A DNA stretch of 44,431 nucleotides from Oscillatoriales cyanobacterium. Its GTDB lineage: Bacteria > Cyanobacteriota > Cyanobacteriia > CACIAM-69d. Of the stretch, positions 2,514-17,439 are shown in pieces; position 1 is the first letter of the stretch, and each line of letters opens with the position of its first letter. Below the pieces are notes generated by a model that did no database searches, was not told where the DNA came from, and saw only the letters and a program-made list of their open reading frames with translations. Location: NCBI GenBank assembly GCA_004292515.1, contig RDXB01000089.1:1-44431 (forward strand). The letters run 5' to 3'. The translations under genes and the position numbers were made by a program.

Positions 2514-5500
2514 CTAGCGAGCTGCGGCCCGATCGGCCGTTAAGTGCTCAACCTTAGCAATCAGTTCCTGGGTCACATGGGGCTTCAGCATATAGTCCGC
2601 TGCCCCCAAGCTGAGGGCCACTTGCCGGTATTGGATGCCGCTACAGGAAGTCAGCAACATCACCGGCACTCGGGCCACGCCGGGATACTGCCGCCGCATA
2701 TTCAAAAATTCCAAGCCAGTCATCCGGGGCATTTCCAAGTCGGAAATGACGAGATCCACATCCGATCGCTGCCGTAGCAAGTCGAGGGCTTCTAGACCAT
2801 CAGCCGCTTGCAAAATTCGGTAGCCCTGGCGCTCTAGGGTCAGGCTCAACAAACGACGCTCTGTGTTGGAGTCTTCAACGACTAACAGGGTTTTGTGGGG
2901 GTTGGGGGTTGACGGGGGCGGACTGATGGCGGGGGCGATCGCTTCGGTGGCCGCAACCGTGACTTCCGGGAGCCGGTCAACCAGCCGGTCAACCAGCCGA
3001 TCAACCAGTGGCGGGGGAGCGGCCGCTGGTTCCAGTTGGGAGATTTCTGAGGGGGGATTGGTGGCGACGGGTAACGGCTCATCGCTACTAGCGAATGGGC
3101 CGATCGCCGTCGTCACACTGGCCGGCAAGGCCTCCGCCTGCACCAGCAGCTCATTGCCATCGATCGCCAATACCATCCGCCCATCGCCCAGCACGGTGCA
3201 GCCATAGATGTAGCGGGGAGCGGGCAGGGCCTCCGACAGTTGGCGCAACACCAGTTCTTGTTCGCCCACCACCCCATCGACTTCGATCGCCACTGGATAG
3301 TCACCGGCATCCATCAACAGCAGCGGTGCCAGCCGATTACTCAAAAACGGGGTAATTGCGCCCATGTCCGATCGCAACAGGCCCGGAGCCAAGGAACCAT
3401 AGCGCATCAGCTCCGCTAGCTTGCGAATCGGGATCGTGGTTTCCGGTTCATCATCACTGGCTTGCCATCGCAAAATCCGCTGACCGCCAAGCATTTGGGT
3501 CTGTTCTGGCTGGGGAATCAGGATTTGGCGCACACTTTCCGAGGGCAGGGCATAGACGGCCCGATCGGCTTGGCACACCAGCAGCCGGGCGGTCATCAAA
3601 CTGAGGGGCACGCGCAAGATAAACGCCGTGCCGCGACCGGGGCTGGACTGGATGCTGACGGAGCCTTTGAGCGATCGCAGTTGCGATCGCACCACATCGA
3701 GGCCCACGCCCCGACCCGACAGATCAGTGATTTTGTCAGCCGTCGAAAAGCCCGGTTCAAACAGCAGGTCAAACAATTCGCGATCGCTCAGGCTGCTCGA
3801 TCGCTCCGGGGCCAAAAAGCCCCGCTCGATCGCCTTTTCACGCAGTTTCTGGGCATCAATGCCGCGGCCATCATCGGCCACCCAGATCAACACATGGTTG
3901 CCCTGCTGTTGGGCCCGCAGTTCGATCGTGCCGGTTTCCGGTTTGCCCTGAGCCAGTCGATCGGCCACGGGTTCGATTCCATGGTCAAAGGCATTCCGCA
4001 CCAAATGCAGCAGCGGATCGTAGAGCTGTTCGATCGCCACCTTGTCGATCGCCACCCGTTCGCCCACCACCCGCAGCGTCACGGGTTTGCCATAGCGGCC
4101 GCACAGTTGCCGCACCAAGGGCCCAAAGCGATCGAACACCGCCGCCGCCGGTTGCATCCGCGTGTCCATCAAGCGATCGCGCACTTGCCCCAGCAGGCGG
4201 CGCTGCTTATCCAAGGTGGCGGCCGTCTGTTGGGCATAGCGCTCCACCACCTCAGCCGTGGAATCGATTCGATCGGCACTATCCAAAGCCGTATCGATCG
4301 CCTGACGCAACCCCAAATCACCCAACCCCAAATCACGGCGGCCCAAGTCTCCTAGGCTCGATCGATGGGGATCGCTGCCCAAGGACGACTGCTCCAGCCG
4401 ATCGCGCGCTTCACTCAGACAGCGACGATGCTGGCGTAGCCCTTGGCGAAATCGCTCTAGCGCCGATCGCAACTGTTCATCTTGCAGGCTTTGGCGGTTT
4501 TCATTAATCAGCAACTCCCCCACTAGGTGCTGGAGTGCCTGCAAGCGATCGATTTCTACCCGAATCAGCGCCACCGGGGCGATCGGGCGGTTGTCAGCCG
4601 GCTTGGGATCCAGGCGCTGAGGCTCGGGCGATCGGCCGGGTTCTGGGGTTAGCTCCACAACCGTCGGGGTCGCTATGGCAATGGGCGCAGGGGGCACAGG
4701 GGGCACAGGCATAGGGGTCGGCACTGGCCCCGCCAATGTCGATGTCTGCACCGCCACCGCCGAGCTGATCGCCTCTTCGTCGGTCAAGTCCAGCCACTCG
4801 GCCACCCCTTGGGTCAAGTCCAGGGCCTCGTCATCCTGCTCACCCACGCTCCCGCCCGCCAAAGCCAGCAAGGCCGCAGACACCTCACCCCCCCGCGTTC
4901 GATCGCCCGCCAAAACCGCCTGCTGGGCCGAGCGCCAATTGTCCAAAACCATTTTGGCCACCAACATGGGGCGATCGCCACTCACCTGCAACGCATGGAG
5001 CGCCGTTTCCGCGATCGCCTGGAACCCCGTCAAGCCCAAGGACTCACCCAGTCCCAAAAAAACTTCAGACTGGGTTGCCACCGTTTCAGCCGCCCGCACC
5101 GCATCGTTGGCTTCCACCAAGGCGGCTAGCTGCTCAATTCGCTCCAGCACCCCGGTTTCAAAAATCGACTGCACCAGGTCAAAGCCCAATTCTGCCGAGG
5201 TGGGCAACCGTTGCTCGCGCTCAAAGCAATCGCCCAGCAGGGTTTGCAGTTGGGCAAACAGGTCGATCGCCGTATCCAACACCTCCCGATCGACCTCGCA
5301 CCCCTGTTCCCACTGGGTTGTCAAGGCCAAACGCAAACATTCGTAGAGCTGAAACAGCAGCCCTTCCAGGTTGAAATCAATCACCGCTGCCGGATCAAAC
5401 AGGGCCCGAAACACATCTTCCATGTGGTGGGCGATCGTCGAAATGGTCTCCAAGCCGACGTTGGCCGAAGCCCCCTTCAGCGTGTGGGTCGCTCGCATCA

Positions 5501-5630
5501 GGGCGTGGATACGCTGCTTGGACGGATCATCGCGCAACTGCAACAAATCCGTTTCGATCGATCGCAGCAGGTCTTGGGACTCGCTGAGGAAATATCCGTA
5601 AGCTTCCTCGCGGATGGCAGGATCGAGCAT
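2514..5630 (-). CDS. CheA-type hybrid histidine kinase with C-terminal receiver (PixL/HmpE/PilL class)
   Basis: This is a cytoplasmic chemotaxis-type kinase. An N-terminal Hpt domain has phospho-acceptor His49 in RATHTLKGAS. A long Pro/Ala-rich linker follows, then a dimerisation region. The ATPase domain (about residues 520-670) has N-box HLVRNAFDHG and glycine boxes DDGRGID and GRGVGLDVV. A CheW-like domain spans about 675-835, and a receiver starts near 915 with Asp964 in VISDLEMPRMTG and the conserved Lys in YMLKPH. Translation probably starts at ATG 5630 (MLDPAIREEAYGYF, the usual CheA start); the frame extends upstream to 5681 through a Pro-rich stretch unlike a protein start. It is the last gene of a minus-strand cluster with an MCP 121 bp upstream, which implies the two work together. 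Whether output is phototaxis or pilus control is inferred from context. Confidence 0.93.
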   Translation of the reverse strand: MLDPAIREEAYGYFLSESQDLLRSIETDLLQLRDDPSKQRIHALMRATHTLKGASANVGLETISTIAHHMEDVFRALFDPAAVIDFNLEGLLFQLYECLRLALTTQWEQGCEVDREVLDTAIDLFAQLQTLLGDCFEREQRLPTSAELGFDLVQSIFETGVLERIEQLAALVEANDAVRAAETVATQSEVFLGLGESLGLTGFQAIAETALHALQVSGDRPMLVAKMVLDNWRSAQQAVLAGDRTRGGEVSAALLALAGGSVGEQDDEALDLTQGVAEWLDLTDEEAISSAVAVQTSTLAGPVPTPMPVPPVPPAPIAIATPTVVELTPEPGRSPEPQRLDPKPADNRPIAPVALIRVEIDRLQALQHLVGELLINENRQSLQDEQLRSALERFRQGLRQHRRCLSEARDRLEQSSLGSDPHRSSLGDLGRRDLGLGDLGLRQAIDTALDSADRIDSTAEVVERYAQQTAATLDKQRRLLGQVRDRLMDTRMQPAAAVFDRFGPLVRQLCGRYGKPVTLRVVGERVAIDKVAIEQLYDPLLHLVRNAFDHGIEPVADRLAQGKPETGTIELRAQQQGNHVLIWVADDGRGIDAQKLREKAIERGFLAPERSSSLSDRELFDLLFEPGFSTADKITDLSGRGVGLDVVRSQLRSLKGSVSIQSSPGRGTAFILRVPLSLMTARLLVCQADRAVYALPSESVRQILIPQPEQTQMLGGQRILRWQASDDEPETTIPIRKLAELMRYGSLAPGLLRSDMGAITPFLSNRLAPLLLMDAGDYPVAIEVDGVVGEQELVLRQLSEALPAPRYIYGCTVLGDGRMVLAIDGNELLVQAEALPASVTTAIGPFASSDEPLPVATNPPSEISQLEPAAAPPPLVDRLVDRLVDRLPEVTVAATEAIAPAISPPPSTPNPHKTLLVVEDSNTERRLLSLTLERQGYRILQAADGLEALDLLRQRSDVDLVISDLEMPRMTGLEFLNMRRQYPGVARVPVMLLTSCSGIQYRQVALSLGAADYMLKPHVTQELIAKVEHLTADRAAAR

Positions 5631-5751
5631 AGGGCAGGCTAGTCCGATGGGAGGGGGCGGGGGCGGGCGAGATCGCCCCATCGAAACAACGATCGCTACA
5701 ACGATCGCTCAACAGCAGCCTAGACCACCGTTGAGCGCGTATGGGTCCAGC

Positions 5752-8700
5752 CTAATTCACCTTGAATCGGCCGACGCTGGATTGCAACTCCTGGGAAATG
5801 GCCAGCAACGCCTCAAAGGAAGCCGCCAGGGCCACCGAATCCGCCGAGGTGCGATCGGCCATGCCCGCCACTTCGGTCATGGTGTGGGCCACGGCTTGGG
5901 CCTGTTGGGTTTGGGTGGCAGCGGTTTGGTTAATCCCCTCCACCAAGTTGCCAATCTGGGCCGTCACACTGACCATTTCGCTCAGGCTTGATCGCGTGTC
6001 GCTGACCAAATTCGTCCCTGCCACCACCTGCTGAATCCCGGCTTCCATCGCCTGAGACACCGCCTGGGTTTCTGCCTGAATTTCCTCGACTAGGGCCGCA
6101 ATTTCCGTCGTTGCATCAGCGGACTGGCGCGCCAGCGATCGCACCTCATCGGCAACCACCGTAAAGCCCCGACCATATTCGCCCGCCCGAGTCGCCTCAA
6201 TTGCCGCATTCAAGGCCAGCAATTGGGTTTGGGTGGTGAAGTTGCTAATCAGGCTGACGATCTTCGAGATCTTTTGGGACGACTCACTCAAGGAACGAAT
6301 CTTGCGGCCCGTCTCCGCCACCGTGTCCCGAATCGACAAAATTGCATCCACCGTCCGGTTCATGGCCGCATCGCCCTGCTGGATTGTCGTGGCCGCCTGT
6401 TGCACCGCCTGGGTCACCTGTCGAGCGTTTTGGGTCACGTCGGTGGTGGCCGCCGCCATCACCTGCACCCGCTCCACGGCGGCCGCCAGGGTCTGCGACT
6501 GGCGCTGGGCCTGTTCCGAGAGTTCGGCGATCGCGCTGGAACTGGTGGTGGAAGTCAAGGCCACCTTAGAAGCCGTTTGCTGAAGCTGCACCACAATTTG
6601 CCGCAGACTTTGCAGGGTGTTGTTGTAGGCATCGGCGATCGTCCCCACCTCGTCTTCGGTGATCGGTGCGCGCACGGTCAAGTCCCCTTCTAGGGCTGGC
6701 CGCACCGCCAACAGCAGCTTCAGAGCCTTGCTTTGCAGGTCTTCGCGGGCGGCCTTGTCGCGCTGGGAGGCTTCTTCGAGGGCGATCGACTTCAGCCGCA
6801 ATTCCTCTAGAATTTCCGCCTGTTGAATGGCCACCCCCAATTGCTCCGCCACCCGCAGACCCGTTTGGATATCGAGATCATCCCAATCGCGCGGGCCGCT
6901 GTTTTGGTAAATGGCCAACAGACCCCACAACTCCGTGCCCCTAAAGATCGGCACATGTAAATAGGCCTTTGCTTGCATCTGCTCCAGCACCGTGATGTAG
7001 CACTGGGGATAGCCCATTTTGTAGACATCAGGCACCCGGAAAAATTGCCCTTCCCGATAAACGCCGCCTTGGTTGTCCTGCAAGTAGGTATCCGCCACCA
7101 CATAGCCCCGCTCCCGCAGCCGCTGGAAGGCGTTGCACTCACTAGACACCTCTTGCAGACCAAAGGCCTTGGAATCCACCTGGATTAGGGGTCGCCAGCC
7201 GGAGCCGACGGATTCGGCCATGAACTGACCGCTCCAATCTTCATTGAAAGCGTAGATCCCGGTGCGATCGCACTGAATCAGGGCCCGCAGCTCACTGGTG
7301 GTGGCACGGAAAATGGATTCGAGATCCAAGGATTGGCGCACCTTGGTCACCAGGGAGGTGATCCCCCGCTCCCGATCGGCGACCCGCTCAAGTTGCCGCT
7401 GCTGACGGTTGAGCTGATCGATGTATTCCGCCTGTTGTAGAGCCAGGCCCAGTTGGGTAGCCAAGCGGGCCAGAATTTGCCCATCTAGCTCTTCCCATTG
7501 GCGAGTGTTGCTGTTTTGGTAAATGGCCAGCAACCCCCACAGGTCATTGCCTTTGAAGATGGGGACGATGATGTAGGCCTTGGCTTGGAAGCGATCGAGC
7601 AGTTCCAAGTAGCAGCGCGAGAAGCCCGCCTTAGCCACATCCGGCACCATCATCACTTCGCCTTGGCGGTAGTTGCCGCCTTGGTTGTCTTGCAAGTAGG
7701 TGTCGTGGACTTGGGCCCCTTGGCGAGGGCGGCCCCCGTTGCGGTTGTTGGGGTCGTAGTAACTGCCGTTGCGCAGGCTGTCGTCTTCGAGCAGCCGAGT
7801 CCAGCCAGAGCCAACCGCTTCGGCCACAAATTCACCACTCCAGTCCGGTGCAAACCGAAACACACTGGCGCGATCGACCTGAAAAATCTGGCGAATTTCT
7901 TGAACCGTGGTGTTGAACAGGAGTTGAATATCCAATGACTCGCGGATCTTGTTCATCACGGCCAACAGGGCCCGATCCTGCTGGACATTGCGTTCGAGCT
8001 GAACTTTTTGATCCTGAAGCTGTTGCAAATATTCTGCCTGCTGCACCGCCACGCCCATCTGTTGGCCCATTTGGGTCACGAGGTCGGTTTCTTCCGCCTC
8101 CCAGTTGCGGACGCGATCGTTTTGATACACCGCCAACAGGCCCCAGAGTTTGTCGTTGGCAATCACCGGGGCAATGATGTAGGCGCGACACTGGAATTGC
8201 TCCAGTAGCTTCAGGTGGCAGGGGTCATAGTCTTGGGTTTGAATGTCCGCCACCGTCAGGGTTTCGCCCTTGATGTAGCGACCGCCCTTGGTGCGCTCAA
8301 AGTAGCTGTCGCGAAAGCTCTTGCCGATCAGGGGTTTCCAGCCGCGTTCCATCGACTCCGAGACAAAATCGCCGCTCCAGTCTTCATTGAAGCGATAGAC
8401 GGCGGAGCGATCGCAGCTGAACAGAATCCGCAACTCATCGGTGGTGGTTTGCATGATCGTGTTCAGATCCAAAAATTGGTGGATCTTATCGACGATCATG
8501 GCGACGGCCCGTTGGCGGGCCACCTGTTTTTGGAGTTTGTCGATCGCCTCAAGCTGGGCAATCCCGCGCCCAATTCGATCGCTGAGGGCCCGCATCAGTT
8601 CCCGCTCGGCGATTGTCCAAGGGCGGGCCCCACTGTTTTGGTAGATGGCCATCAACCCCCACAGCCGATCGCCCTGGGTCAGCGGCGCAATCAGGTAGGC

Positions 8701-9318
8701 CCGGCATTGGAACCGCTCCAGCAGTTGCACATGGCAAGCGCTCAGGCCCCCTTGGTAGATGTCATCACAGGCGTAGAGTTCCTTGGCGCTGTAGCGTCCC
8801 CCTTGGGTGCTGCTCATGTAGCTGTCGTTGAAGCTGTTGCCGAGCAAGGTGGGCCAGCCGGGAGCTACGGCTTCGCTGACAAACTCACCTGACCAGTCGG
8901 GGTTGAAGCGGTAGACCGCGGCTCGATCGCAGCCCAGTTGTAGCCGCAATTCTTGGCAAATTCGCCGCAGCAGCTCATCAAGCGTTTGGCTGTTGTCGAT
9001 CGCCTGCTCCAGTCGCGGGTCTAAGGCGCGACCAGACTCGATGACGTGGCTAATCGGAGCGCCTTCTAGGGTTTCTAAGGCTGGGGCGATCGTGTCGGCA
9101 AAGTGCTCGATCTGCTCCATTTTTTCCATGACAAAACGATCGGGCCGGCCCGATCGCTCCAACTCTGCCTTGAGCGCATCGACCGCATCTTGGAACCGGC
9201 GCAAATCCACCACGGGCATGGGCGCGGGCATAGGCTCAACGGGCAGGCTCTGGGGCGTGCCATTACGGGATGAGCGATCGTCGCGAGCAGTCCGGGAAGC
9301 GTCAAAATATGCAGTCAT
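5752..9318 (-). CDS. Soluble MCP with four phytochrome/cyanobacteriochrome-like GAF domains (PixJ-like)
   Basis: The predicted protein has 1,188 aa and no transmembrane segment. Four tandem GAF domains each carry the DWSGxFVxES-type strand and a Cys at the bilin-attachment position: Cys195 ([11 protein letters not shown]), Cys367 ([11 protein letters not shown]), Cys569 ([11 protein letters not shown]) and Cys773 ([11 protein letters not shown]). In this family the Cys-His pair is the canonical bilin attachment site; GAF3 and GAF4 have Cys-Tyr. [10 protein letters not shown] occurs in GAF3 and GAF4. No clear DXCF motif is seen. A HAMP-like segment ([15 protein letters not shown]) and an MCP signalling hairpin with tip [19 protein letters not shown] near residue 1,043 follow. 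ATG 9318 is preferred over the upstream start at 9366. The gene lies between CheW and CheA genes, as in pixJ/hmpD-type clusters. Light sensing is inferred from the Cys residues; these could also be apo-GAFs. Confidence 0.92.
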
Positions 9319-9594
9319 AGGAATAGCTCGGAAAGCAACCGAAGAAACAAAACCCAACCAACTCAAGCCATCAAGGCTCCAACAATCGAAACAAGGCGCT
9401 CAACAGATTTCTAGCAGAGACATCCCTGGCTAAGAGAACTCCTAATCAAGAAAACTCCTAATTTCCTAATTGAAGAAGATCCCCAGCAACCAAGATCCCT
9501 ATCCAAGAAAATCTCTTTGGGTATAGGATTCCCCCTTGATCATGCCGAAATTACCCTGGGTCTCGCTAGTCACCCCCAACGGGTCGCCCTAACC

Positions 9595-11499
9595 CTAAAC
9601 GGCCGCCTGGGCACTCGCGCGGGCGATCGCACGGGGATTTAAGACCATGCTGCTCGCCTCACTGAGATAGCCCTGGACAAACGGCAACAACCGATCGGGA
9701 AAAAGCCCAGCGCTGGGGGGCTGAACATTAGGCGAGTCATGCCACTCGATGTCTTCAATTTGTGGAACAACTAAGCCCAGGTTTTGTGCGTCGCATTCCA
9801 ACACGATCGCCACCGCCATCGAGGTAGCTGTGAGGTTTGGTGCGATCGCCGGAAAGCCCACCAACTGGTTGAGGTCGATCATCCAGACAATTTCGCCCCG
9901 CCAGTTATACACCCCTAACACCGATTCTGGCATATGGGGCACGGGCAAAATGTCCGTAGCAGCAATTCGCAGCACTTCGCGAACTTCATCCACTGGCAAT
10001 AGGGCTGTGTCTTCAAATCCCAAATGGAAACGCAGGAAACGTTGGCCTTCTCCGGAGGTGGCCGGGGCTTCGGGAGCCAGGGTGGGCACTACGCCGCCAG
10101 GGTCTTCGCCTTGGTGTAGCCACTGACTGAGGGGATCCATCGGAATGGCGATCGGGGTGGCCAGGGTTGGCGCAGAGGAGGCTGCGGACTCAGGGGGCAA
10201 GGCGGGTTCGGGGGACAAGGCTGGGGCTACTCCGCTGGTCATCCCATTAGTCATCCCGTTAGTCATCCCGTTGGTGATCGGGGAGGGGCTGAATCCCGGG
10301 TCGATCGGCTCCATCGGCAGGGCCAATGGGGGGTCGGCGATCGCCGGTTCCTGGCCGTCAGTGGCCATGGCCTGGGTGGCAATATCAACCAATGCAGATA
10401 AGCCTTCTGCATCGAACAGATCCAAGTCATCTTCGTCATCCCAGCTCGAAAACGGGGACGCTGGTTCGTCGGCGGGGGCCGCGTTGTTGAAGTCGATGGC
10501 CGGTTCGATCGGGGAATTGACCCAAGCAAAGGGAGCCGATGGATCTAGCGCTGGATCTAGTGCTGGATCTATCGCTAGATCCAGGGTGGGATCGAAATTG
10601 GATGCCAAACTCGCTGCCACCTCTGGTTTCGGAGCCGGGGCACTAGCCGGGTTGGCTATGGTGGGGGCGGCCGGTGGGGGTTCGGTGCTTGTGTTCGTTC
10701 CTGTATTCGTTCCTATGTGCATTACTGGGAGCGGTTCTGGGAGCGGTTCTGGATCTGGTGCGATCGACTCTTCTGAGAGTGCATCGGCCGGTAGATCAGC
10801 CGCAAAATCGCCCAACAAATCGAGGTCATCAAAGCCCCCGCTTTCCTCCTCCTCCACGGTTGCGACCGGGGGAATGGGCAATGTATTCAAGTCAGGCTCA
10901 GGCACGGGGTCAGGCGCGGGGGTGGCTGGCTCGCCCGGGGCGATCGCCCCATTCCCAAGGGACTCCGCCAAGGCCAGCAGGGCCGATCGCGGATCGGGCG
11001 AGGTGGCTAGCAGTTGTGTCACCAAATTGGCTAACTCATCGGTGGCCGAGTCAGCAGCAGGCTCCGGTGCAGGTTCAGCAATGATGGCCGCAACGGGTTC
11101 GCGATCGGCGATCGGAGGCTCCTCGTCGGCCAGCTCACCATGTAGGTTGCGCTCTGCCACGGCCACCGCTGCATCATCCCCATCGAGATCGGGCAAATCC
11201 CAGTCCTCGTCTCCCGCCAAGTCCTCTAGGTCGTCGGTGGGTGACTGATCCGCATCAGCCATCACTGCCAGATCCGCTGTATCCGCCAGCTCGGCCGGCT
11301 CGGATAGCTCGGATGGCTCGGACAGCTCGGCGATCGCGGCGGATTCTGGTTCCAAGGTGTCTAGATCGTCGCCAAAGTCTAGATCTCCTGCAAACTCATC
11401 TTCAGACTCATCCTCCCACCCGCTGACAACGCCCAAATCCTGTTCAGTGGCGGGTGCTGGCTCCTGCCCAACAACGGGTTCAGGCACTTCAGCTAGCAA
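9595..11499 (-). CDS. CheW-domain protein with long acidic N-terminal region (downstream half of a split gene)
   Basis: The C-terminal ~150 residues form a CheW domain (GQRFLRFHLG, PVDEVREVLR, VLGVYNWRGEIVWMIDL), the adaptor that links MCP to CheA. The ~480 residues before it are an acidic, Ala/Pro/Asp/Glu-rich low-complexity region containing one helical module (DELANLVTQLLATSPDPRSA) of the kind repeated three times in the gene upstream. No ATG or good ribosome site lies near the 5' end. The only start candidates are TTG at 11499 and further codons up to 11565, where TAA at 11568-11566 closes the frame. Between 11565 and 11499 this frame reads an uninterrupted Glu-Pro run, while the overlapping upstream ORF reads Arg-Thr-Gly there. 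It therefore most likely is the 3' part of one gene with 11489-14239. Typical CheW proteins have only ~160-180 aa. Confidence 0.85.
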   Translation of the reverse strand: MLAEVPEPVVGQEPAPATEQDLGVVSGWEDESEDEFAGDLDFGDDLDTLEPESAAIAELSEPSELSEPAELADTADLAVMADADQSPTDDLEDLAGDEDWDLPDLDGDDAAVAVAERNLHGELADEEPPIADREPVAAIIAEPAPEPAADSATDELANLVTQLLATSPDPRSALLALAESLGNGAIAPGEPATPAPDPVPEPDLNTLPIPPVATVEEEESGGFDDLDLLGDFAADLPADALSEESIAPDPEPLPEPLPVMHIGTNTGTNTSTEPPPAAPTIANPASAPAPKPEVAASLASNFDPTLDLAIDPALDPALDPSAPFAWVNSPIEPAIDFNNAAPADEPASPFSSWDDEDDLDLFDAEGLSALVDIATQAMATDGQEPAIADPPLALPMEPIDPGFSPSPITNGMTNGMTNGMTSGVAPALSPEPALPPESAASSAPTLATPIAIPMDPLSQWLHQGEDPGGVVPTLAPEAPATSGEGQRFLRFHLGFEDTALLPVDEVREVLRIAATDILPVPHMPESVLGVYNWRGEIVWMIDLNQLVGFPAIAPNLTATSMAVAIVLECDAQNLGLVVPQIEDIEWHDSPNVQPPSAGLFPDRLLPFVQGYLSEASSMVLNPRAIARASAQAAV

Positions 11500-14239
11500 G
11501 GTTTCGGGTTCTGGTTCTGGTTCCGGCTCGATCGCCTCGGGTTCCGGTTCTAACTCGGGTTCCAGTTAGATCCGCTAAATCTGGATCGGCTAAATCCACT
11601 AGATTTAGATCCGCTAAATCTGGATCGGCTAGATCAGGTAAATCATCAGGTGTTGTGTCTGCGGCCGGTTCGATCGCAGGTTCAGGGATCACAACACTGG
11701 TTGGCGGGGTAGGAAGAATCGCGGGGGCCGGCTCGGGCGCTAACCCAGCCAAACGCGCGATCGTGGCGATCGCGCTGTTGAGGTCAAAATCACTGCGATG
11801 TTCGGCCAAGCTGGCCAATTGCGTAATGGCTGCCAACGCTTCCCGATGCCCGATCGCGTCGGAGGGGGCCGGCGCTGGTTGCTCGGCAGGCACGGCAGAC
11901 TGTGCAGCTTCCGGGGCCATATCTTCAGCGATCGAGTCAGGCTCCTCAGTCAGGTCTAGGGCCACCTCCTGATCAGCGGCCAAGGAGAAGATCGGCTCGG
12001 GTTCTACCTCATCCTCATGGCCGTCTAGCGTAGTCGGGACTTCGGGATCAGGCGCGTCATCTAACTCGATCGCTTCCTCAATCACCTCATTGATCATCAC
12101 CTCATCGATTGCTGGATCGGCCAAATCCTCGATCGCCAGATCTGCATCCTCAGGCGCGTCATCTAACTCGATCGCTTCCTCAATCACCTCATTGATCATC
12201 ACCTCATCGATTGCTGGATCGGCCAAATCCTCGACCAAATCATCGATCACCAAATCCTCATCCTCAGCGATGGGGGCAAGGTCTTCAACCACCTCATCCA
12301 CCGCCAGGTCAGCTAGCTCCTCGATCGCTTCGTCAATCACCTCGGGACTTTCATCGTGGACGATTGCCACATCTTCGATCACCTCAGGCATAGGAGCCGG
12401 GGCGATCGGCTCAGGCACAGGCGGACTAGCCAACAAACTCAGCCGCTCGATCGCCGTCAGGGCGCGGTTGATGTCGGCCGTGGGGTTGGAGGCCACCAGG
12501 GCGACCAACTGCGCGATCGCGTCGGTGGCTTTTTCGGCAACACTCACGCCGGGTTCCGAGTGAGCCGCCGTGGCTGGCGCGGTCTCCTCGGCTAATTCGG
12601 CGGGTTCCTCCGGTAATGGTTCAAATGGTTCAAATGGTTCAGCGGCCTCCCCGATCGCCTCCATCTCCAGTGCTAAATTCGGTTCGCTGTCTTCTGCCGT
12701 GACTGCGTCAATTGCGTCGGACTCTGCTGTGGGAGTGGGAGCCATTTCCGCAAGCGGCTCCTCGGCGATCGGTTCCTCAAGGGCTAATTCAGCAGCAGCC
12801 AAGTCTTCAACAGCCACTCCTTCAGGCTCAGGCAGATCGTCAGTCAAAATCTCAGCCTCGGCCGGGATTTCTGCATCCAAAGCATTGCTGGTTTGTTCGA
12901 TCGCTGCCCAATCGGCCAACTCTTCTTCGGTGAGGGCCAGGGCATCGGGGTCAATGCCTAAAAAATTCGCATCTTCTGGGTCAACTGGATCGATCGCCGT
13001 CGTTGCTGGCTCGGCGGTCAACTCTACAATGGCTAACTCCACGGCGGTCAACTCCACCGCAGTTGGCTCGATAGCAGTCGGCTCAATAGCAGTTGGCTCG
13101 ATAGGCTCGACGGCAATCACTGCACCCTGGGCTAGCTGCTCATGGTCAGTGCTGAAATCAGCGCTGATTTCAGCACTGATTTCAGCGTCGATCTCGTCCG
13201 CGATCGGTTCTGGGGCTATGTCTATAACCACCGTTCCATCGTCGATCGCCTCGTCCTTGGGTAGGTCTGGGCCGGGTTCGCCGGGTTCGCTCGGCTCATT
13301 AACCGCCACCTCGATCGACTCCAGATCCGCCGCGATTGGGTCAGCCTCAACCGCCACGGGCGCGATCGCACCCACCGCATTGACCAAAGAGGCCGCGGCC
13401 TTTTCGAGGCTGCTGGCCAAACCACTCAGGGCAACCAAGGTGGCTTGCAGTTGGCTCACTTCAGCAGCGGCCGCTTCTGCCAAAACTTGGCCGGGGGCAA
13501 TGGGATCGATCGCACCATCGAGACCCGTTGCGTCCGCGCCCTCATCCAAAACGCCGGCCGCGACTTCTGCGGACTCCACAGCCTCTGCGGACTCTGCGAC
13601 TTCTGCGGACTCTGCGACTTCTGCGGACTCCACAACTGCGGGCGCGATCGCCTCGGGTTCTGGCTCACTGACCGTTTCGAGGGTGAGATCTTCAAGATCC
13701 TGCAAGTCCTGCAAATGCTGCTCATCAACGGGCAAGGCGATCGGAGCTGCTAGGGAGTCGGCGAGTGTGGCGATCGCCTCGGGTTCTGGCAGCGCATCGA
13801 TCGGCTCCTCGGCCGGCGCGCTTGGCTGGGGGGGCGGGGTTTCCAGGGCGAGGTCAGCCGTCAGATTTGTGGACAACTCCACTGGGTCTGGGTCTGGGTC
13901 TGGGTCTGGGTCGATCGAGGGCAACGGCGGCAGGTCGATGTGATAGCACCACTTGGGCGATCGCTCTGTCATGGACTGGCCACCCACCTTGACTGCTTGA
14001 ATCACCGATCGATCCAGGCCGTTGATGGCTAACTGCTCAATGGTCGGTTCGATCGTCTCCAAAGCCAGCCGCGCCGAAGGAGCCTGCTCACCCGCTAACA
14101 ACAAATACAAACAGCCGTCCTTGAGGGCAGCCTTGACCGTAATCGTTGGCTCAAGGCGATCGCGAATCAACAGCGCGATCGCCTGGGGATTGGCGCTCAG
14201 GGCCTGCTGCGTAAGGATGATTTGTTGTTGTGCGTCCAT
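11489..14239 (-). CDS. Giant acidic Ala/Glu-rich repeat protein, upstream half of a split CheW-fusion gene
   Basis: The 916-aa frame starts at ATG 14239. Residues 1-105 form a compact domain (PQAIALLIRDRLEPTITVKA, LYLLLAGEQAPSARLALE, IQAVKVGGQSM, WCYHID) that resembles a small domain I recall from other cyanobacterial proteins; its function is unknown. The rest is strongly acidic, dominated by Ala, Glu, Asp, Pro and Ile, with three predicted helical modules: SQLQATLVALSGLASSLEKA, DAIAQLVALVASNPTADINR and EALAAITQLASLAEHRSDFD. A further module sits in the CheW ORF downstream. There are internal DNA repeats of 18, 39 and 102 bp. The last ~20 residues (TGTRVRTGTRG...) switch abruptly to basic/Thr composition, the mark of reading past a frameshift. 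With one base removed at about 11566 the frame runs into the CheW ORF, giving 1,547 aa. It could act as a long flexible scaffold (inference). Confidence 0.75.
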   Translation of the reverse strand: MDAQQQIILTQQALSANPQAIALLIRDRLEPTITVKAALKDGCLYLLLAGEQAPSARLALETIEPTIEQLAINGLDRSVIQAVKVGGQSMTERSPKWCYHIDLPPLPSIDPDPDPDPDPVELSTNLTADLALETPPPQPSAPAEEPIDALPEPEAIATLADSLAAPIALPVDEQHLQDLQDLEDLTLETVSEPEPEAIAPAVVESAEVAESAEVAESAEAVESAEVAAGVLDEGADATGLDGAIDPIAPGQVLAEAAAAEVSQLQATLVALSGLASSLEKAAASLVNAVGAIAPVAVEADPIAADLESIEVAVNEPSEPGEPGPDLPKDEAIDDGTVVIDIAPEPIADEIDAEISAEISADFSTDHEQLAQGAVIAVEPIEPTAIEPTAIEPTAVELTAVELAIVELTAEPATTAIDPVDPEDANFLGIDPDALALTEEELADWAAIEQTSNALDAEIPAEAEILTDDLPEPEGVAVEDLAAAELALEEPIAEEPLAEMAPTPTAESDAIDAVTAEDSEPNLALEMEAIGEAAEPFEPFEPLPEEPAELAEETAPATAAHSEPGVSVAEKATDAIAQLVALVASNPTADINRALTAIERLSLLASPPVPEPIAPAPMPEVIEDVAIVHDESPEVIDEAIEELADLAVDEVVEDLAPIAEDEDLVIDDLVEDLADPAIDEVMINEVIEEAIELDDAPEDADLAIEDLADPAIDEVMINEVIEEAIELDDAPDPEVPTTLDGHEDEVEPEPIFSLAADQEVALDLTEEPDSIAEDMAPEAAQSAVPAEQPAPAPSDAIGHREALAAITQLASLAEHRSDFDLNSAIATIARLAGLAPEPAPAILPTPPTSVVIPEPAIEPAADTTPDDLPDLADPDLADLNLVDLADPDLADLTGTRVRTGTRGDRAGTRTRTRNLAS
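11563..11568 (-). other. Apparent single-base frameshift joining the acidic ORF and the CheW ORF
   Basis: On the minus strand the acidic ORF reads GCG GAT CTA ACT GGA. Dropping one of the two A's gives GCG GAT CTA CTG GAA CCC GAG, i.e. Ala-Asp-Leu-Leu-Glu-Pro-Glu, which continues directly into the Glu-Pro run and CheW. The extra base sits at the edge of a 27-bp direct repeat. It could be a sequencing or assembly error, a real mutation, or a slippage switch. Confidence 0.7.
11566..11631 (-). repeat. 39-bp-period direct repeat inside the acidic gene
   Basis: A 27-bp sequence (TTAGATCCGCTAAATCTGGA and the next seven bases) occurs at 11566-11592 and again at 11605-11631. It encodes Ala-Asp-Leu-Ala-Asp-Pro-Asp-Leu runs. 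Its left edge coincides with the frameshift. Confidence 0.85.
12048..12234 (-). repeat. 102-bp-period tandem repeat inside the acidic gene
   Basis: Bases 12048-12132 are identical to 12150-12234 (85 bp, period 102 bp = 34 codons). They encode the duplicated segment with DEVMINEVIEEAIELDDAP. Exact identity implies a recent duplication or gene-conversion-like maintenance. Confidence 0.9.
13561..13634 (-). repeat. 18-bp minisatellite in the acidic gene
   Basis: Near-identical copies of TCTGCGGACTCTGCGACT follow in tandem and encode repeated Glu-Val-Ala-Glu-Ser-Ala on the minus strand. A neighbouring GGGTCT run at about 13882-13910 encodes Asp-Pro repeats. All repeat units are multiples of 3, so copy changes would keep frame. 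Confidence 0.85.
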
Positions 14240-14963: not shown

Positions 14964-16499
14964 TCACGTTTTATGATGCGTCTCGGTGGGGGTTGGTCGC
15001 GATCGATCACTAAGGCTGCTCGGAGACTTTGGGGGGGAATCGAGGGTCAAATATTTCTGAATCAGGGGAGCGATGCGATCGGAGCGCAACGGCTTGGCCA
15101 CAAAAGCCGAAGCCCCACTGAACTTAGCCCGCACCCGATCGATGGCCCCGTGATTGCTGGTGACGATCGCGATTGGAATGTGAGCCAAGGTCTTGACCCG
15201 ACGAAGTTGCGCGCAAATTTCATAACCGTTGGCGATCGGCATCACCAAATCCAGCAAAATCAAATCTGGCCGCTGTTCGATCGCCACTGCCAATGCCCTA
15301 GTCGCATCCATCACGTGGAAAAATCGACAGCCCAAACGATGCACCAACGGCTTGAGCAAACGCCCCACCATTGGATCATCATCAATCAACAGCACCAGCG
15401 GCGGCCGTGTTTTGGGCGCAGTCGCAGAGGACTCCGATGGCGATGACGCTGATGATAATGACGGCGATGTTGACGGTGACGTTGACGGCGATGCTGATGA
15501 TAATGACGGCGACAACTCCGCCGCCAGGGCTTGATTAAGCCCCACAAAATTTTGGGGAAGAGCAGACAGGGCGCGGTTTGAATCTCCGATCGCCGTTGGG
15601 ATGGGCTGGGTAACTCCCGTGATGCCCGCCGGTTGGTTGGCTTGGGACAATGAGATCGGGGCGATCGGGAGTGATGCCGGGGCGGAAGCGGCCGCCAGCG
15701 CCGATTTCACCGACGCTTGCAAGAATGCCTCTTGGGGCCAATCGCCCAGGGTCAAAAACTTCAAATTGCCTTGCCGATAGAGGTGATGCAGGATATGCAC
15801 CATGATCGGGAGCGGTTGCCGCATCAGCAGGGCCAAATCCCAGGTCGATCGCTGGCCGTTCAGCAGCGGAGCTAGGGTCAAAAACGTTGAAGACTCTTTT
15901 TGGGTAATGGCAGATGGCGACCAACCAACTTGATCAAGCTGGGGAGCGCGATCGGCCAAATTCGGCGACAACCCAACGGATTCCCACCGTTGCAGCAGCT
16001 TAATCGCCTCCTTCATCACCTCCGCCAGCTGATCGCTATCCAGCATTTGTTGCGAAGCGGCGATCGCCTCAGGCAGCGCTGGCACATATTTATCCCACTG
16101 GCAGCTCACGGACGAGTCCGCACTGGCCACCAGCAGCACCTCTTGGGCCACAGCGCCAATGATTGACCGGGCCACCTCCGAAGTCATCTGACCAGCAGCC
16201 ACCCCCGCCGCCAACCACCACACCTCCCAGAGAGGCAAATTGGCGGGGCGCATTTCCGTAGGCGCAAAGCTAATGGAGGTACGCTTTAATGCTCGCTGCC
16301 AGCGCCGCACCCGAAACTGCTGGTCGATCGCCCACAGCAACTGACCCCGCAAAAAAATTAAGCGCCAGCGAGCCTTGCCCTGGGCCAGCACCAGCGAGCC
16401 AGTAGCTTGGCGTTGGGCAATAGTTGTCAACATCCGCGAAATTTTGGTGGATCCCGCGCTCACCGGTTCCATTCCTGACTCCATCCGAGGGTTGGTCAT
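14964..16499 (-). CDS. PatA-type response regulator (DUF4388-like N-terminus, C-terminal receiver; PixG/HmpA/PilG class)
   Basis: The 511-aa product has an N-terminal PatA/DUF4388-like region (TGSLVLAQGKARWRLIFLRG, followed by LLWAID), a middle helical region, a Ser/Pro/Thr linker near residues 330-360, and a receiver starting about residue 365 with LLIDDDP, phospho-acceptor Asp417 in LLDLVMP and Lys in VAKPLRS. In cyanobacterial tactic clusters such proteins are the first gene and take phosphate from the CheA hybrid. ATG 16499 is chosen because GGAG (complement of 16508-16511) lies eight bases upstream; the frame extends to a TTG at 16520 that overlaps this site. The linker is encoded by imperfect GATGACGGCGATG-like DNA repeats at 15440-15515. 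It is probably the promoter-proximal gene of the cluster. Confidence 0.9.
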   Translation of the reverse strand: MTNPRMESGMEPVSAGSTKISRMLTTIAQRQATGSLVLAQGKARWRLIFLRGQLLWAIDQQFRVRRWQRALKRTSISFAPTEMRPANLPLWEVWWLAAGVAAGQMTSEVARSIIGAVAQEVLLVASADSSVSCQWDKYVPALPEAIAASQQMLDSDQLAEVMKEAIKLLQRWESVGLSPNLADRAPQLDQVGWSPSAITQKESSTFLTLAPLLNGQRSTWDLALLMRQPLPIMVHILHHLYRQGNLKFLTLGDWPQEAFLQASVKSALAAASAPASLPIAPISLSQANQPAGITGVTQPIPTAIGDSNRALSALPQNFVGLNQALAAELSPSLSSASPSTSPSTSPSLSSASSPSESSATAPKTRPPLVLLIDDDPMVGRLLKPLVHRLGCRFFHVMDATRALAVAIEQRPDLILLDLVMPIANGYEICAQLRRVKTLAHIPIAIVTSNHGAIDRVRAKFSGASAFVAKPLRSDRIAPLIQKYLTLDSPPKSPSSLSDRSRPTPTETHHKT

Positions 16500-17439
16500 T
16501 ACGGATGCTCCACGTTGCAATTAGCCGTATGAAATGGTTGTTTGATACGAGGGACAAATGTCACTGATGCACCGTGATGTCCAGCCAGTCAAAGCGACAG
16601 CCATGCTGACCACCCTAGCTCCCGAAAGAGCGAGCAGTGTGCTCCGTTGGAGGTTGATTAGATTAATAGCCTTAACTAAAAATTAAACAATACTTGCGCC
16701 CCTGCTACAGTCATTTTTAAACTATCCGTTGCAATGCTTCATGATGGTTATAGTAGACCTGCCAATCTTGGTCAGTTTCAGCACGGGTCAGCCTGAGCGC
16801 AAAACCACCTCAAATCCCGTCAGTACTTAGTACATGACAGTCAACGATCCGAGCTAAGACCATGGATTGGGATCTATAAATTTGGGGCAGCGGACTCGTC
16901 AGCAGATTGATACTGAGCCTGCACTACTGCTGAAGATGAATGCAGGCTTACGTCAGACCAATGGCCAGTAAGGGGCAATTAATCCTTTCATCGGTCAACA
17001 GTCATGATCAGCCATGTAGCTGTAAAGCTGATACATATGCCACTTTTTTGAAGTGAAGCAATATCTGTAAAGAAGTCTAACAATTTTTTTTCAAACTGCC
17101 GAGTCTTCTCAAGTTGGGAGGCTGACTCCTAGGGCAATCAAAAGGAGAATGACTCAGCCCAGAATAATGATTGAATAATGAGCCTACTTTGAAGTAGGTG
17201 ATGACCCCAAATGCGACTCCAAATTTGACCCCAAATTTGACTGCAGATCTAGGGAGTTGAGCTGAGGTTGAGCTGTCCCGATCGCTGATTTTTGCTCTTA
17301 ACCGCGAGCGATCGCCCTCAATCGCACTAGCTTGATCATGCCCAAGGGACTGGCTAGATCTGTCAAATCATGGCCATGAGAGGAGCGATCGAGTGGCGAT
17401 CGAGTCTTGATCGCCACGCGGTCAAATGGTGACCAAGGG
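16500..17439. other. Long spacer upstream of the taxis cluster
   Basis: About 940 bp without a credible gene, between the PatA-type gene and the end of the SUI1-type gene on the same strand. It is more AT-rich than its surroundings and should contain the cluster promoter and the leader of the PatA-type mRNA. Visible items are the hairpin CCTACTTTGAAGTAGG at 17183-17198 and a repeated CCCAAATTTGACC-like unit at about 17205-17245. No transposase or RNA gene was recognised. Confidence 0.5.

Follow-up and report, generated by a model that had tools for sequence, protein, structure and literature searches.

CheW is ordinarily a stand-alone domain of about 160-200 aa and is treated as a minimal coupler of fixed size. 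In the stretch of cyanobacterial DNA analysed here (44,431 nucleotides, hereafter the window), a CheW frame overlaps the end of a very long acidic open reading frame, ORF1. An earlier note, made from the letters alone, had proposed that the two are one giant CheW fusion gene split by a single-base frameshift. The locus therefore raises the question of whether it holds one gene or two and, if one, what a CheW of such length would do.

One coding region with a single break

The gene and the site of its interruption are as follows.

9595..14239, minus strand: entire giant-CheW gene, interrupted once near 11565 and 1,548 codons long with one base left out, with intact homologues in relatives
11560..11575, minus strand: frame-break site, bordering a 31-bp direct repeat whose copies (11566-11596 and 11605-11635) are 97% identical

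On the minus strand, ORF1 (916 aa) runs from 14239 to 11489; the overlapping CheW frame, one base out of register with it, stays open between 11565 and 9595 (656 aa). The whole interval measures 4,645 nt, which minus one base gives the 1,548 codons; the coordinates, frames and arithmetic of the earlier note were right, and frame-specific composition agrees with them. The acidic frame 5' of the break (frame 0) has 1.0 K/R per 100 and zero stops, and the next frame (frame 1) 3' of the break has 0.8 K/R per 100 and zero stops, against 15-22 K/R per 100 and 21-63 stops in the remaining frames of the interval. Since the K/R depletion switches frame exactly at the break, ORF1 and the CheW frame form one coding region. 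The abrupt Thr/Arg/Gly tail previously described at the end of ORF1 was also recovered, with 7 Arg in the 24 residues past the break. So was the missing start of the CheW frame, for which the sole annotatable start is a TTG at 11499 that lacks a Shine-Dalgarno-like sequence upstream; the ATG at 14239 is preceded by GGGAG.

A CheW-domain search of 59 related genomes recovered this gene from five further members of the Limnothrix family. Uninterrupted, gap-free frames encode 1,586 aa in G001, 1,556 aa in G002, 1,390 aa in G003 and 1,321 aa in G005, while the 1,818-aa frame of G004, which passes through a short stretch of N (translated as 33 X), is less surely continuous. The giants of these relatives occupy the same gene position, with a methyl-accepting chemotaxis protein (MCP) gene downstream wherever the contig extends far enough, and the CheW domain is 93% identical between the window and its congeners. 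Intact CheW proteins of the size and position that the earlier note had suggested looking for are thus present in five relatives, and two separate intact genes, which were also looked for, were found in none of the five. Because the relatives' frames are uninterrupted, the break is specific to the window, where it arose either in the assembly or by very recent mutation of the source strain. The linker of the G004 gene (L041) consists of long near-identical acidic repeats together with the run of N, and such linkers assemble poorly.

Two other accounts of the break were weighed. The source strain may now carry two genes, ORF1 with its Arg/Thr tail and a 634-aa CheW translated by coupled re-initiation at TTG 11499. 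This start overlaps the end of ORF1, whose TGA (11489-11491) follows shortly after it, and constraint is still apparent in both halves. However, that TTG is without a ribosome-binding sequence, the Arg/Thr tail breaks the K/R rule and every relative has a single frame, so that we consider this quite improbable. The apparent constraint on either side of the break would likewise suit programmed frameshifting or transcript slippage joining both frames in the window strain, but the relatives need no shift and the break site is without a long homopolymer; we regard this as very improbable indeed. We conclude that 9595-14239 is a single gene, encoding a giant coupling protein of the CheW type, and that the design of this protein is independent of the break.

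Among the matches listed from 291 genomes of the class, frames longer than 1,300 aa were confined to the family's five other genomes and the broken gene of the window, with none outside the Limnothrix family. The composition of N-terminal domain, linker and CheW is common to all six family genomes, and the claims about this architecture, mechanism aside, are in our judgement close to certain. A plasmid search returned only ordinary, remote CheWs, and a limited literature search found no published description of a giant CheW. Copies of the HIP1 octamer GCGATCGC number 2.8 per kb in 9595-14239 against 1.85 per kb across the window, and may underlie some AIA/AIAP stretches of the protein.

Architecture of the protein and its short counterparts

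Within the gene, the following parts were delimited.

13919..14239, minus strand: N-terminal domain of about 100 aa, aabbabb, unnamed and recurrent in Cyanobacteriia (AlphaFold2 pLDDT 92.5; copies in its own genome and class; profile from non-CheW proteins)
10135..13918, minus strand: acidic low-complexity linker of about 1,270 aa with 12 K/R in all, containing islands A, D and E and both module copies
13358..13462, minus strand: helical island A (QLQATLVALSGLASSLEKAAASLVNAVG), conserved in congeners, with no amino-acid change between G001 and G002
12425..12532, minus strand: helical module copy 1 (KATDAIAQLVALVASNPTADINRALTAIERLSLLAS), from the repeat profile
11735..11848, minus strand: helical module copy 2 (HREALAAITQLASLAEHRSDFDLNSAIATIARLAGLAP), from the repeat profile, only in the Limnothrix family
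10945..11043, minus strand: helical island D (TDELANLVTQLLATSPDPRSALLALAESLGNGA), downstream of the break
10354..10410, minus strand: short helical island E (AEGLSALVDIATQAMATDG)
10108..10134, minus strand: W[LF]xxG motif (PLSQWLHQG), just N-terminal of CheW, invariant in giants and aligned short forms
9598..10056, minus strand: CheW domain (Pfam PF01584), 93% identical in congeners

The CheW end is unequivocal, scoring 79.4 bits against PF01584 (curated cut-off 23.5; E 5e-22), with a dN/dS of 0 between G001 and G002. It carries NWRG, an instance of the N-x-R-G motif that we take to be the receptor-side motif of CheW, whose N and R columns are invariant in alignment A1. The W[LF]xxG motif is invariant in 8/8 aligned sequences, namely the five giants and three short forms (L048, L088 and L089; see below). 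At 1,321-1,818 aa in relatives, the giants lie outside the typical size of a stand-alone CheW, a size that is no functional requirement.

That the protein has its own N-terminal domain, as had been claimed, is borne out, and this domain proves to be a recurrent, unnamed cyanobacterial one found on unrelated proteins. In an AlphaFold2 prediction made with six sequences it adopts a compact and confident aabbabb fold, and its dN/dS between G001 and G002 is 0.055. No match was obtained in Pfam, NCBIfam or PHROGs, nothing credible came from comparing its sequence profile with the PDB, and fold comparison yielded no clear relative, with zero Foldseek matches at E <= 0.001 and a best VIA-align Z of 7.5, which falls within the usual chance range. 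Profile searches located nine copies in the window's genome (the other contigs being C30, C85, C11, C39, C62 and C60) and matches in 35 of 117 genomes drawn from the phylum, all 35 in the same class. Many cyanobacterial proteins that are unrelated to one another (TPR, CapA-like and membrane proteins) begin with this domain, some with tandem copies, and a profile built from such non-CheW copies alone matches the five intact giants at E 1e-11 to 1e-15. Locus L087 in G028 pairs the domain with a giant acidic linker in a second, unrelated case: in its open frame of 1,166 aa, the domain precedes a long acidic stretch rich in Asp and Ser and, at the C-terminus, a hydrophobic segment.

In all six family genomes the linker measures 1,046-1,510 aa, holds 12-20 K/R and has a net charge of -0.24 to -0.30 per residue, a composition which suggests that it is disordered or extended. 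Its helical islands evolve under far stronger constraint than their surroundings: between G001 and G002 they show 16 synonymous to 1 nonsynonymous changes (dN/dS 0.02), compared with 155 to 195 (dN/dS 0.36) in the remaining linker (Fisher p 5e-5), a contrast somewhat favoured by the choice of islands, which were selected visually for helical character ahead of the dN/dS test and partly for their likeness between relatives. The earlier note had described one helical module occurring three times upstream of the break and once downstream. Two of the upstream copies hold: a module profile built without the window scores 16.9 bits at 12425-12532 and 42.2 bits at 11735-11848, and since the best of 1,400 shuffled sequences reached 9.2 bits, these two are a genuine repeat. 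The downstream copy is borderline in comparison with copy 1 (p 0.006), and the earliest upstream copy is unsupported as the same repeat. A test of whether the four helical islands all belong to one repeat gave no support for islands A and D; both of these are nevertheless conserved helical islands. The module was found only in the Limnothrix family in a search of 96 genomes, once in G003 and G005 and twice in the other family genomes.

The profile from non-CheW N-domains also matches the N-termini of ten CheW proteins of 289-363 aa from other cyanobacteria (named short forms: L048, L088, L089, L102, L104, L106, L107 and L115). Like the giants, these short proteins have the N-domain followed by CheW and, where the surroundings could be read, lie in the same type of locus. 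They differ in the gap between the N-domain and the CheW-side match, which is 4-35 aa in the short forms and 1,036-1,525 aa in the giants. For a short form of 314 residues, AlphaFold2 gave a confident N-domain and a poor linker and CheW, with a mean pLDDT of 64. When 49 CheW domains are placed in a maximum-likelihood tree, the giants form one clade (100/99), grouped with two short fusions at 91/81, which is below the tree tool's own mark for strong support. The simplest history, judged from these sequences, is that the giants apparently derived from an existing two-domain CheW by expansion of the gap, from about 300 to about 1,300-1,800 aa. In L048 a 280-aa frame at 8487-9329, lying between the short-form CheW and the MCP, resembles by eye a transposase-nuclease of the PD-(D/E)XK/Rpn type.

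The phototaxis setting of the locus

The neighbouring genes lie on the same strand as the giant CheW, with the MCP and then CheA directly downstream of it and a PatA-like regulator upstream.

14964..16520, minus strand: PatA/PixG-like response regulator, weak DUF4388 match and receiver
5752..9366, minus strand: MCP with four GAF domains, a bilin-Cys position in each (CH, CH, CY, CY), and no evident transmembrane segment by hydropathy
2514..5681, minus strand: CheA with Hpt, ATPase, CheW and receiver domains

The phototaxis setting already suggested for this protein is strengthened by the adjacent MCP: its four GAF domains are cyanobacteriochrome-like, and its best PDB matches are MCPs with phytochrome-type GAF domains. 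The receiver of the upstream regulator is clear; its DUF4388 match is weak and under the cut-off for that family. In Synechocystis, the CheW of the tax1/pix operon is PixI, and the locus also encodes a PATAN regulator, a cyanobacteriochrome MCP and a CheA (PMC5812497). The giant CheW is, like PixI, the CheW of a locus of this type, with the qualification that the DUF4388 match of its regulator is below cut-off. An ordinary CheW has about 160-200 aa, to which the giant adds the N-domain and a linker of more than 1,000 aa. Judged by gene content, identification of the giant-CheW locus as a tax1/Pix-like phototaxis locus is well supported.

By hydropathy alone, no stretch resembling a membrane span was found in this MCP or in the MCPs of the relatives. 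An array built on an MCP without a span would need another anchor. However, the MCPs beside short-form or ordinary CheWs are likewise without a span by hydropathy, so that its absence does not explain the giant linker.

A possible role for the acidic arm

The closest architectural parallel is ParP of Vibrio, which consists of an interaction domain, a long proline-rich linker and a C-terminal CheW-like (AIF) domain, and couples array formation to localisation, its N-terminal domain binding ParC (PMC5706961). The giant CheW matches ParP in this domain order, which is a likeness of architecture; the ParP linker is proline-rich and far shorter, while that of the giant CheW is acidic. The AIF domain is moreover nearer to CheA-P5 than to CheW, with residues up to W305 lying within the C-terminal domain (PMC5706961). 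The giant CheW may work like ParP, yet we do not class it as a ParP.

By analogy with ParP, the CheW end would insert into the MCP/CheA array, as its homology implies, and the N-domain would bind a partner or landmark elsewhere; the linker would stay extended and soluble, giving a long reach and keeping arrays apart, and the helical islands could serve as docking sites along it. Architecture and mechanism taken jointly, a single gene for an adaptor that resembles ParP and bears a long acidic arm, make up a reading that we hold to be reasonably probable. The mechanism by itself is a tentative suggestion. We put forward with similar reserve the idea that the position or spacing of a photosensory array is set by a giant disordered CheW arm, comprising a tether of more than 1,000 residues, docking islands and an N-terminal anchor. 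A tether or spacer function, as first suggested in the earlier note, is therefore one that the protein may have. Two observations weigh on it: proteins that have nothing to do with taxis also carry the N-domain, which may thus serve for something other than anchoring arrays, and Limnothrix has been described as slightly motile or non-motile (PMC6256058), which counts against the tether reading.

The same features could be read in other ways. With a charge of about -300, the linker might be mainly a repulsive coat, an entropic or electrostatic brush that limits array packing or sets spacing, the N-domain and islands being secondary; extreme net charge and K/R depletion are indeed kept in six genomes despite fast change of the linker sequence. 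A pure brush, however, needs neither islands at a dN/dS of 0.02 nor a conserved N-domain, and the short forms retain the N-domain without any brush, so we think this unlikely. We are similarly doubtful that the protein is a multivalent scaffold, on which islands and N-domain gather multiple copies of a signalling partner at the array and whose length is a by-product. The two true module repeats and further conserved islands would fit such a scaffold, and a candidate partner, the PATAN-like regulator (with its sub-threshold DUF4388 match), is encoded directly upstream, but the copy number is low, the true module occurring once in G003 and G005 and twice in the others.

Whichever part the acidic arm may play, the analysis exposes a recurrent cyanobacterial domain missing from Pfam and NCBIfam. 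Furthermore, a lineage that has kept on its CheW an acidic arm of more than 1,000 residues, with strongly constrained islands, allows a direct test of how linker length and charge affect array assembly, the short forms with their gap of 4-35 aa being natural controls.
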